In this document: positions 25,610-27,909 of the stretch, piece after piece
Numbering within the stretch: position 1 is the first letter of the stretch
How the letters are laid out: each line of letters starts with the position of its first letter
From: Oscillospiraceae bacterium
GTDB lineage: Bacteria; Bacillota; Clostridia; Oscillospirales; Oscillospiraceae
NCBI GenBank assembly: GCA_017621795.1
Contig: JAGASJ010000007.1
Coordinates: forward strand, 1 to 34,550
DNA length: 34,550 nt
Direction: 5' to 3'
The notes under the pieces: generated by a model
Databases searched by the model: none
What the model was told of the DNA's origin: nothing
The model's input: only the letters and a program-made list of their open reading frames with translations
Position numbers and translations under genes: made by a program

Positions 25610-26125
25610 TTATTTTTGCAAGGAATCCAATATAGATTGAATCTCTTCGTCCGTAAGCTCAATTGTGCATATTAGTTCATCGTTATTTGTAATTATTACT
25701 GCACCACAGTTACAAATCGCAAACCGATAATGCCAGGGAATATCTTCGCGTTCGTTATCAAACATATAGATGTAATACAAAAACTCACATTCCGATGTGT
25801 CCATGATAGCATTTTTTCCATCAGTCGCTTGAAAAATAGTTGTTAGGATATCGTGCCTATCATTGTACATCGTTCCATTTGACATATCAGTAATTGAAGC
25901 GTTTGAATATACGATGCAAGGTGTTGTTGCAATTCTTTGGAATCTGAATTTTCCATTCATAACTTCCAGATTTAACATTGCATCATATGGAACTTGGTCG
26001 TGATACCCTTCATCAGTATTGGCTGATTGTGTTGGACTTGTTGTATCTTGTTGCCTGTACTGATTGCAACCAATCAAAGATAACATGCAACCCAACGCTA
26101 AAACCATTGCCATGAACTTTTTCAC
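25610..26125 (-). CDS. Small lipoprotein of unknown function
   Basis: The GTG at 26125, with GAAGGGG 9 bases upstream, begins a 171-residue protein. Its signal peptide ends in LIGC, so Cys20 is the lipid-attachment site. A Ser/Thr/Gln-rich linker follows, then a compact domain with FRFQRI, a CEFLYYIYMFDNE strand, CNCGAVIITN and a final short helix (LTDEEIQSILDSL). I do not recognise the family. The reading frame extends upstream to a TTG at 26152, but that part crosses into the IS110 left end. Base composition is AT-richer than the glycan locus. The gene sits alone, and the IS110 element lies 28 bases before its start, between it and a promoter-like sequence at 27713-27741. Confidence 0.75.
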   Translation of the reverse strand: MKKFMAMVLALGCMLSLIGCNQYRQQDTTSPTQSANTDEGYHDQVPYDAMLNLEVMNGKFRFQRIATTPCIVYSNASITDMSNGTMYNDRHDILTTIFQATDGKNAIMDTSECEFLYYIYMFDNEREDIPWHYRFAICNCGAVIITNNDELICTIELTDEEIQSILDSLQK

Positions 26126-26189
26126 ATAATTACACCCCTTCGTCAAATTCAAGTTGGTAATATATAAGCGAGGGTTTAATAGCCTTCGC

Positions 26190-26345
26190 TTTTCCTATAT
26201 GATGAAGGGGACCGGTCTAACGGAATTTCAAGTTGGGACGCCACGCCCGTAGCAAAATGTGTTAGCCACCCTTCATCATTCTGCATTCGATTTAGCTAGT
26301 TGGGACAGAATGCTGCTCCCGTTTTACGCACCAATCTGAATGAAT
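26190..26345 (+). ncRNA. Predicted IS110 bridge RNA with target-binding and donor-binding loops
   Basis: The non-coding left end folds into two stem-loops of the kind described for IS110 bridge RNAs. Target loop: an 11-base stem (26198-26208 with 26269-26279) and an inner stem CTAAC/GTTAG (26216-26220 with 26261-26265) enclose a left guide (26223-26232), an inner hairpin (26235-26248) and a right guide (26254-26260). Donor loop: stem CATTC/GAATG (26284-26288 with 26338-26342) encloses a left guide (26290-26299), an inner hairpin (26302-26320) and a right guide (26330-26337). Left guides copy the left flank (TTCAAG) and right end (TTAGCTAG). Right guides can pair with the right flank (ATTT) and, with one bulge, the left end (AGTTGGT). 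RNA ends are approximate. Confidence 0.72.
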
Positions 26346-26392
26346 TTTGAAGCGATGGAACCGATCAATATCATTCATAAAGGAGGATCACT

Positions 26393-27586
26393 ATAATTGC
26401 TGTTGGAATCGATGTTTCAAAGTCCAAGAGCACAGTTGCTATCCTGGATTCCTATGGAACCGTCTTGGCAACTCCATTCAACATGGCACATACTCAGCCA
26501 GAAATGAATGCCCTTGTATCCCGGTTAAAGGCTTTTGACGAACCGGTAACTATCCTGTTGGAGTATACCGGACACTATCATTACCCTGTCCTAAAGAAGC
26601 TCCAGGATGAAGGCTTGCCGGTGTGTGTTGTCAATCCGTACCAGATGAAGAAGTACGGTGATGTAGAGATTCATAAGGCAAAAACAGACAAGAAGGATGC
26701 CCTTCGCATCGCAACCTATGCTCTGGAGAGATCCTACAGACTTGTTCCCTACAGCGCGATGGAGCAGAAATACGAAGACCTCAAATTTCTCTCAAGGCAG
26801 TACCAACAAAGGATTGGTTTGGTCTCAAGATTCAAGGTTCAGCTTATTAATCTTCTTGACCAAACAATGCCTGGAATCACCAAAATACTTACTTTGAGAA
26901 GCAGAGAACCGGAAAAATGTGCTTTATTGCTCTTTATTAAGCGATATAAGTCCTTTGATGAAATCCAGCGCATTGGAAAAACGAGATTTCTCTCTACTTA
27001 CGCAACACTCATGAAAAAGACACCAGATAAATATGCTCCCAAGAAAGGCTTGGAAATTTACGAATTGGCCCGTGACAGTATCACTACCCGGGGAGAAGAT
27101 CCTTACATCTGGGCTGCACAGGATCAGTGTGTAGATCTGCTGGCTGCTGCTCAGAATGCTGCAGATGAAATCATTACGCAGATGCAGAACATTGCAGAAA
27201 CCATTCCAGAATACAAGGTGCTGCGTGCTATGAACGGTGTTGGTGACCGGCTAGGTCCCGTTATTCTGGCTGAGATTGGAGATATACGGCGCTTCCATAG
27301 TGCCAAGGCCCTGAATTCCTTTGCGGGCAATGATGCGCCGCCATACCAGTCTGGACAGTTTGAGAGCAGAAACCGCCATATCTCGAAACGTGGCAGCTCT
27401 GCTCTCCGGAAAGCTTGTTTTGAGGTCATGCAGGCCCTTAAACTGACAAAACCTCAGGACGACCCTGTATACCAATTCATTTTGAAAAAGGAACAGGAAG
27501 GAAAGCCCTACAACGTGGCCAAGATGGCTGGTGTAAACAAGTTCCTCCGAATCTACTACGCAAGAGCCATGGAACTCTACCGGTAG
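26393..27586 (+). CDS. IS110-family transposase (DEDD plus Tnp_20), apparent ATA start
   Basis: From base 26393 the frame encodes 397 residues. The N-terminal RuvC-like DEDD domain shows AVGIDVSKSK (first Asp), LLEYTGHYHY (Glu) and KTDKKDA (Asp). The C-terminal Tnp_20 part shows NGVGDRLGPVILAEIGD and SGQFESRNRHISKRGSSALR, which contains the serine region of this family. These proteins act with a bridge RNA to recombine donor and target. AGGAGG stands 6 bases before the triplet ATA at 26393, where relatives have ATG (MIAVGID). No ATG, GTG or TTG occurs in frame until TTG at 26465, which would remove the first catalytic Asp. So translation either uses ATA or ATT, or the element has lost its start. 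The rest of the frame is intact. Confidence 0.88.
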   Translation: MIAVGIDVSKSKSTVAILDSYGTVLATPFNMAHTQPEMNALVSRLKAFDEPVTILLEYTGHYHYPVLKKLQDEGLPVCVVNPYQMKKYGDVEIHKAKTDKKDALRIATYALERSYRLVPYSAMEQKYEDLKFLSRQYQQRIGLVSRFKVQLINLLDQTMPGITKILTLRSREPEKCALLLFIKRYKSFDEIQRIGKTRFLSTYATLMKKTPDKYAPKKGLEIYELARDSITTRGEDPYIWAAQDQCVDLLAAAQNAADEIITQMQNIAETIPEYKVLRAMNGVGDRLGPVILAEIGDIRRFHSAKALNSFAGNDAPPYQSGQFESRNRHISKRGSSALRKACFEVMQALKLTKPQDDPVYQFILKKEQEGKPYNVAKMAGVNKFLRIYYARAMELYR

Positions 27587-27680
27587 ATCTCTTTCATTAT
27601 ACACAAAATTTTAAAGCCCGCAATCTGGTGGGTTAACTTTCTGCGCCCTTTTTTAGGAACAACAGAGCAGAATTTTAGGC

Positions 27681-27686
27681 TTGACA
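27681..27686 (+). promoter_or_regulatory. Consensus -35 box at the IS110 right end (junction promoter half)
   Basis: A perfect TTGACA lies 12 bases before the inferred right end. If the ends join in a circle, it is followed 16 bases later by TAATAT of the left end (26158-26163), with TATATA or TATAAG slightly further. IS110-family circles are known to form such junction promoters, which would drive the bridge RNA and transposase. Confidence 0.55.
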
Positions 27687-27712
27687 AACATTAGCTAGAT
27701 TTATCTAACTGA

Positions 27713-27741
27713 ATTATACTCCCACACCACGCAGAAATCAA
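27713..27741 (-). promoter_or_regulatory. Probable original promoter of the lipoprotein gene, now beyond the IS110 element
   Basis: On the minus strand TTGATT (27741-27736), 17 bases, then a perfect TATAAT (27718-27713) points towards the element. With 26154-27698 removed, this promoter would lie about 40 bases before the lipoprotein start at 26125. Confidence 0.65.
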
Positions 27742-27758
27742 GATTTACCCATAAATTA

Positions 27759-27813
27759 CCGCTACCCGCCCTTATCTGCAAATGCTGCTAAAATAGAGGT
27801 AGCGGGCTTTTTT
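27759..27813 (+). terminator. Terminator-like hairpin with T run
   Basis: CCGCTACC (27759-27766) pairs with GGTAGCGG (27798-27805), followed by GC and six T. The loop is long (31 bases). No plus-strand gene other than the inserted transposase ends nearby, so it may be left from a lost gene. The rest of 27587-27963 holds the element end, the two promoters listed here, and no gene. Confidence 0.5.
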
Positions 27814-27909
27814 ATGCCCATTTTGTCGGTGCTTGCGACCTTGCTCAAAAGCCGATTTTTCGTCATCTACTTTAGAGGCGTAACTCTTGCCGACGGGATG
27901 AGGCAGAAG

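Follow-up and report, generated by a model that had tools for sequence, protein, structure and literature searches.

Comparison with related sequences indicates that the window, the 34,550-nucleotide stretch of Oscillospiraceae DNA analyzed here, contains a jumping element of a gut bacterium with a small RNA of its own, in which four short guides would choose the insertion site and recognize the element's own ends. We interpret it as an IS110-group insertion sequence with a bridge RNA in its left end, a TT core, a promoter formed at the circle junction, and a target motif located in 5' leaders, and we put the probability of this whole explanation at roughly 0.93. The first-pass annotation mainly claimed that the left end encodes an IS110 bridge RNA carrying guides for target and donor; related copies, whose guides co-vary with their own flanks and ends, upheld this, with uneven support among the guides. 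The guides, ends, core, structure, and target motif were established by comparing sequences, while transcription, the circle, strand order, and handshake pairing are proposed by analogy with IS621. The element thus appears to be a well-supported new example of the IS110 bridge-RNA systems, a recently discovered kind, and our literature searches found no paper on this element family with a bridge RNA. The features discussed below are collected in Table 1.

Table 1. Predicted features of the element and its flanks, in window coordinates
Feature	Position	Strand	Remarks
IS110-group element	26154-27701	+	TT core at both ends; insert of 1546 bp, counting a single TT
Left target positions 1-7, ATTCAAG	26147-26153	+	Positions 2-7 copied by left target guide; tested in 45 copies
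Left core TT (positions 8-9)	26154-26155		Basis: left-end tally, uninterrupted leader, tandem junction
Right donor dinucleotide GG	26156-26157	+	Complemented by right donor guide
-10-like TAATAT	26158-26163	+	Candidate promoter part
5' stem-loop of bridge RNA	26166-26191	+	Helix 1: 4/8 pairs with two-sided changes; 98.0% of cells paired
Target-binding loop	26199-26279	+	Outer stems 26199-26208/26270-26279 and 26214-26221/26261-26267; inner hairpin 26235-26248; helices 2-4
Left target guide, positions 1-9, TTTCAAGTT	26226-26234	+	Position 1 mismatched in window
Right target guide	26251-26257	+	A26255-A26257 pair core TT and T10; 26251-26252 pair positions 14-13; 26253-26254 mismatched
U, candidate handshake base of target loop	26258	+	Would pair donor A27699 after strand exchange, on the IS621 scheme
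Donor-binding loop	26284-26342	+	Outer stem 26284-26288/26338-26342, 94.7% of cells paired; inner hairpin 26302-26320; helices 5-6
Left donor guide, TTAGCTAGTT	26292-26301	+	Compared with donor positions -1 to 8
Right donor guide, ACCAATCT	26330-26337	+	Complementary to AGATT|GGT of circle junction
IS110 DEDD/serine transposase	26393-27586	+	PF01548 1.6e-42, PF02371 3.4e-18; ATA where relatives have the ATG codon
-35-like TTGACA of right end	27681-27686	+	Candidate promoter part (sequence only, as for TAATAT)
Left donor, TTAGCTAG plus A7	27691-27699	+	
Right core TT	27700-27701		Basis: uninterrupted leader, tandem junction
Right target positions 10-14, TATCT	27702-27706	+	

The open frame of the element (26396-27583) encodes 396 residues, matches both IS110 Pfam domains, and scores 199.8 bits, against a cut-off of 140, with the NCBIfam model NF033542.1, "IS110 family RNA-guided transposase." The catalytic D, E, D, D, and serine residues (6, 56, 98, 101, and 319 of the query) are identical to residues 13, 62, 104, 107, and 243 of the IS621 chain, for which we inferred an offset of two between chain and published numbering; ISCro4 and IS621 were the only solved structures related by sequence. 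The host genome (2.03 Mb in 105 contigs) has a single IS110-domain match. Elsewhere in the window, a large carbohydrate-use cluster occupies the minus strand from 3270 to 23908, with CBM_4_9 proteins, an alpha-L-rhamnosidase, a GH109-like protein, and ABC sugar-transport parts.

Relatives at E up to 1e-60 were found in 45 of 400 genomes of the family. The plasmid collection held no near match to the element, and all 31 records from the phage collection were below 60% identity. Our scans gave 70 loci from genome contigs and 3 from viral contigs; with L098 (28% identity) left out, the 72 that remained and the window made up 73 records. Alignment A1 consists of 49 of these, after omission of 16 truncated on the 5' side, 3 lacking the anchor motif, and 5 identical ones, with the end of L051 set by hand. 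The left target guide was tested in 45 of the 46 copies with a full left flank, the exception being L040, whose flank is another copy's right end, and the right target, left donor, and right donor guides were tested in 32, 40, and 53 of the 73 records, respectively; loci L001-L031 lie outside the guide tests.

The boundaries of the element rest on an uninterrupted leader in a congener (locus L106 of genome G464) and on a tandem junction in L040. A probe made of the joined flanks aligned to G464 over 224 bases at 88% identity and was gapless over the join, where this genome reads AAATTCAAGTTTGTC, the wild-type target sequence of the uninterrupted leader; G424 is identical at that spot. This leader has the form AAATTCAAG-TT-TGTC. 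Because homology on the left side extends for only ~35 bases and a different gene follows, we regard it as the same leader uninterrupted and not as a strict empty allele. In L040, a right end abuts a left end and is preceded by the tail of another transposase copy; the locus reads TTAGCAAGATTAGTAATA, which gives a right-end/left-end junction of TTAGCAAGA-TT-AGTAATA. Taken together, the leader and the tandem junction assign the extra A to the donor and leave TT as the shared bases. At left ends, the core is TT in 44 of 45 copies and AT in one, L092, in which the right donor guide likewise reads AT. For the TT-core element, the predicted circle junction is TTAGCTAGATTGGTAA / TTAGCTAGATTGGTAATA.

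A stricter form of the junction pattern matched L040, L061, and L093 among 294 loci, and only L040 runs on as a left end; a looser form matched at least 120 AT-rich stretches in viral contigs. We also observed that the right flanks of L061, L093, and L094 start with CTTAA, resembling the element's own left end and not TTTRT, and that L091 and L092, which lie on the same contig, have altered right ends and a right donor guide reading an AT core. L044 carries a tandem duplication of ~20 bases of its left end, in which the outer copy has the flank AAATTCAAG and the core AT.

When the donor guides of relatives were checked against the ends of the same copies, the left guide was found to follow the right end and the right guide to follow the left-end dinucleotide. 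In the window, the left donor guide shares TTAGCTAG with the right end, as had been claimed (26292-26299 equals 27691-27698). In each of the 40 copies with intact right ends, this guide equals the donor at positions -1, 1 to 6, and 8; position 0 agrees in 12 of them and position 7 in none. L037 alone carries CTGG, in guide and right end alike, in place of the CTAG of its relatives. In 53 of 53 copies, the dinucleotide that follows the core is complemented by the right donor guide, compared to a mean of 18.4 and a maximum of 30 in shuffles, and this happens through five combinations of dinucleotide and guide (CT/AG in 27 copies, GG/CC in 13, CG/CG in 7, AG/CT in 5, and CA/TG in 1). This guide had been described as pairing across the left end (AGTTGGT) with a bulge. 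The guide itself is real, and the bulge disappears at the circle junction: the reverse complement, AGATTGGT, is absent from both ends of the integrated copy and appears once the ends are joined as in the circle, which removes the bulge. We ruled out a bulged pairing with the left end, since pairing with AGATT|GGT is gap-free. The TTGACA-17-TAATAT spacing, with its 17-nt spacer, also exists only when the ends are joined. The U column that follows the right target guide is invariant in A1, and all 40 copies examined have A at donor position 7; as the left donor guide never matches A7, this base may be kept free for a handshake.

The left target guide had been said to copy the left flank, and in the window TTTCAAGTT agrees with flank plus core (26147-26155, ATTCAAGTT) at 8 of 9 letters. 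In relatives, guide and left flank co-vary well above shuffles, as a check suggested at the outset anticipated. Over positions 2 to 7, 236 of 270 letters agreed with the copy's own left flank in the 45 copies, compared to 151.4 on average and at most 181 in 20000 shuffles, from which relatedness was not removed. The count was 130 of 162 versus 85.3 in shuffles for the 27 unique guide-flank pairs and 72 of 84 versus a mean of 46.5 and a maximum of 63 with one copy for each of the 14 distinct guides. All six positions matched in 28 of the 45 copies and the match was incomplete in 17, with the worst misses in L032, L082, L034 (whose flank has one extra T), and L044 (whose left end is duplicated); position 1 was mismatched in 43 of 45.

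The match of the right target guide is the weakest of the guide matches. T10 was paired in 31 of 32 copies and position 14 in 17 of 32, while positions 11 to 13 were paired in 63 of 96 cases, a modest excess over the 52.6 seen in shuffles (63 was reached in 38 of 20000 shuffles; the figure on unique pairs is 185 of 20000). In the window, the guide pairs at positions 10, 13, and 14 and mismatches at 11 and 12 (3 of 5). A pairing of AAAT with ATTT had been proposed here; AAA (26255-26257) does pair with TTT (27700-27702), and A27699 is part of the donor end rather than of the target.

We drew a six-helix structure from the window and then counted its pairs on the 49 distinct related left ends of A1. 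Both loops have the order that had been claimed (outer stem, left guide, inner hairpin, right guide, outer stem) and lie within the extent given for the RNA, 26190-26345; the 5' stem-loop lies to the left of that interval. The strand 26165-26350 folds at -61.8 kcal/mol, compared to -45.9 +/- 4.1 kcal/mol for shuffled sequences (z of -3.91), and 0 of 200 shuffles equaled it. Standard pairs make up 97.4% of cells in the six-helix structure, compared to 38.9 to 50.1% with slid partners and 94.7% with shuffled 3' letters, a value that stays high because the columns are conserved. We counted 78 two-sided changes among the 49 relatives versus 23.4 in shuffles, and 8 pairs with a two-sided change versus 5.4 (1 of 500 shuffles reached 8), while further pair types were not above shuffles (25 versus 23.8, reached in 85 of 500). 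The inner hairpins are nearly invariant, those of the target loop having pairs that never vary, so covariation is silent on both. RNAalifold returned 43 pairs, 14 of them with two-sided changes, and paired the base of the donor loop partly otherwise; the donor-loop outer stem appears to be the least certain part of the structure. A search of Rfam found nothing at gathering score across the window, nor at E up to 1 over 26100-27760.

A small gene, which we take to be lipoprotein-like, has the insertion site between its TATAAT box and its ribosome-binding site, and the element points against this gene. With up to 2 mismatches, the motif CAAATTCAAGTTTRTCNAA occurs at 297 sites in 84 of 136 genomes of the genus, compared to 18 for a reversed-pattern control, and at none elsewhere in the window's own genome. 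When the centre of the motif was left free, we found 132, 41, 40, 15, and 12 sites in five of nine chosen genomes and 0 in the other four, with 0 for the control. Among 34 sites that were read, 17 have a -10-like box upstream, 16 have a ribosome-binding site and start downstream, and 11 have both, compared to 4.5%, 4.1%, and 0.3% of random positions, respectively. At the insertions of relatives, a ribosome-binding site and start were found in 13 of 42 left flanks and a -10 box in 6 of 21. The 16 hosts of relatives contain 61 motif sites, of mixed centres, versus 11 for controls, so the high copy number seems to be a feature of the window's genus. That the target is a 5'-leader motif accounts for the expected separation of genes from their promoters by these insertions.

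We made several further observations on this motif. In the form TTMGAYAAANNNNAATTTG, it recurs in 5' leaders between a -10 box and a ribosome-binding site (for example, in G433, G435, and G464; L115-L174), with 132 free-centre sites in G433 and none in the window's own genome. At the leader beside a low-molecular-weight phosphatase gene (L106, L107, and L108 versus window 26125 and 27702-27900), the gene behind the motif differs among congeners, as if exchanged. On contig 27 of G445 (L295), three promoter-plus-motif units, at 1507, 4233, and 5789, lie on one strand within ~4.3 kb, with a different gene after each. Hairpin-rich repeats end right at the upstream side of the motif at L145, L151, L165, L170, L171, and other loci; they presumably resemble REP or MITE elements. 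We dropped a reading of the motif as an integron attC site because its TTCGAY variant seems at odds with the attC core.

We weighed other explanations for the left end and its boundaries. It could be a structured leader of the ordinary kind, controlling the transposase gene, with the guide matches a by-product of AT-rich sequence; the left end is a structured leader upstream of the gene, and both flanks and guides are AT-rich. A plain leader, however, predicts neither that a copy's own guide fits its own flank far better than the guides of other copies do nor that the donor guides change along with the element ends, and we consider this explanation very improbable. The first-pass annotation had placed an AG core at the ends, which would then lie two bases further out, and AG is present at both ends of the window copy (26152-26153 and 27697-27698). 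Such a core predicts a target of AAATTCAAG-ATTTATC and a donor of TTAGCTAG-TTGG, but the uninterrupted leader lacks that A and the tandem donor has it, and both the G464 leader and the L040 junction give TT, contradicting both an AG core and the boundaries it implies. Among the 45 copies, the base ahead of the core also changes with the guide, and many relatives have GA or AA rather than AG as the two bases preceding TT at the left end. There is accordingly very little chance that the AG version is correct.

A different question is whether the window copy, with a true bridge RNA, is a stalled or non-autonomous insertion that is poor at making recombinase. We lean somewhat against this but treat it as a serious possibility. 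Its codon at 26393-26395 is ATA, where relatives have ATG in 58 of 60 copies and TTG in one, positions 11 and 12 of its own flank are not matched by its right target guide, and the element is single-copy in its genome. On the other hand, the frame is otherwise open for all 396 residues with the catalytic residues kept, a good ribosome-binding site is still there, and the following codon ATT, or ATA itself, may start weakly; ATA could also be a single-base assembly error, and L044 has an identical right target guide yet an ATG start. A more speculative idea, which we think unlikely, is that TTMGAYAAANNNNAATTTG, a recurrent near-palindromic leader site exploited by the element family, is itself a place of gene exchange or joint regulation in this genus; the guides would then have evolved to follow its variable centre, and the site could be an undescribed cassette-type recombination site or operator. 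This idea draws on the differing genes behind the site at one orthologous promoter, the 132 sites of one congener, and the three successive promoter-plus-site units of another.

In the reading that we prefer, that of an IS110-group element guided by a bridge RNA, excision would join the right end to the left end. The joined ends would rebuild the TTGACA-17-TAATAT promoter and give rise to a transcript made of the 5' stem-loop, the target loop, and the donor loop. In the target loop, the left guide would read ATTCAAG-TT on one strand and the right guide TT-T plus TC on the other, while the two donor guides would read the circle junction, TTAGCTAG-A-TT-GGT. The DEDD/serine recombinase would then link both DNAs at the TT core. 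Following the IS621 scheme, left guides would pair with bottom strands and right guides with top strands, cleavage would occur after the core, and the handshake base following each right guide would pair with position 7 of the other DNA. With a recurrent 5'-leader motif as the preferred target, a copy would come to sit between a -10 box and a ribosome-binding site.

Bridge recombinases are under development as programmable DNA-joining tools. The element family provides a natural set of matched guide/target pairs, with 14 left target guides and five right-donor states, and it shows a mismatch conserved at position 7 of the left donor next to an invariant U, a candidate handshake base, so that the handshake idea could be examined in a second lineage. 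The curation of ends is a recognized weakness: for many ISfinder ends, evidence from an uninterrupted target or from a circle junction is said to be needed (PMC11187229), and both kinds were found for this family.

Compared with IS621 of Escherichia coli, as described in excerpts of two reports (PMC11208160, PMC11208158), the element is alike in having a DEDD and serine recombinase, a left-end bridge RNA built of 5' stem-loop, target loop, and donor loop, a shared rule for which strands the left and right guides read, and a dinucleotide core read from both sides. Both insert into repeated host sequence, REP elements in the case of IS621. Excerpts of PMC11208160 also report a promoter at the circle junction of IS621, for which the counterpart here is predicted from sequence, and a left end longer than the right end in the IS110 group; here ~237 bases precede the start position and ~115 follow the stop. 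The two elements differ in their cores, CT in IS621 and TT here, and a TT core is reported to be functional with IS621 in an excerpt of PMC11208158. They differ further in that the left donor guide here never matches donor position 7 (0 of 40) and the left target guide almost never matches position 1 (2 of 45); IS621 is reported, in the excerpted text of PMC11208160, to be tolerant at donor position 7. The target here is a 5'-leader motif of Clostridia hosts, and the protein is distantly similar to that of IS621 (phmmer, 3.7e-13).

ISCro4 (PDB 9t56), an IS110-family transposase with a solved structure, is similar in both domains by protein alignment (2.2e-13). In ISEc21 and the IS1111-group elements with seekRNA, a noncoding RNA likewise picks the target, and IS110-type RNA lies upstream of the gene, according to an extract of PMC11187229; the IS1111 group differs in having the RNA downstream of the gene and longer subterminal inverted repeats (PMC11187229, PMC11208160, extracts). 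The close relatives in metagenome-assembled genomes and isolates of gut Clostridia (L032-L104) belong to the same element family and share its RNA, with 63 to 100% protein identity for nearly all long matches; their guides and flanks differ, and the 45 copies tested carry 14 distinct left target guides.
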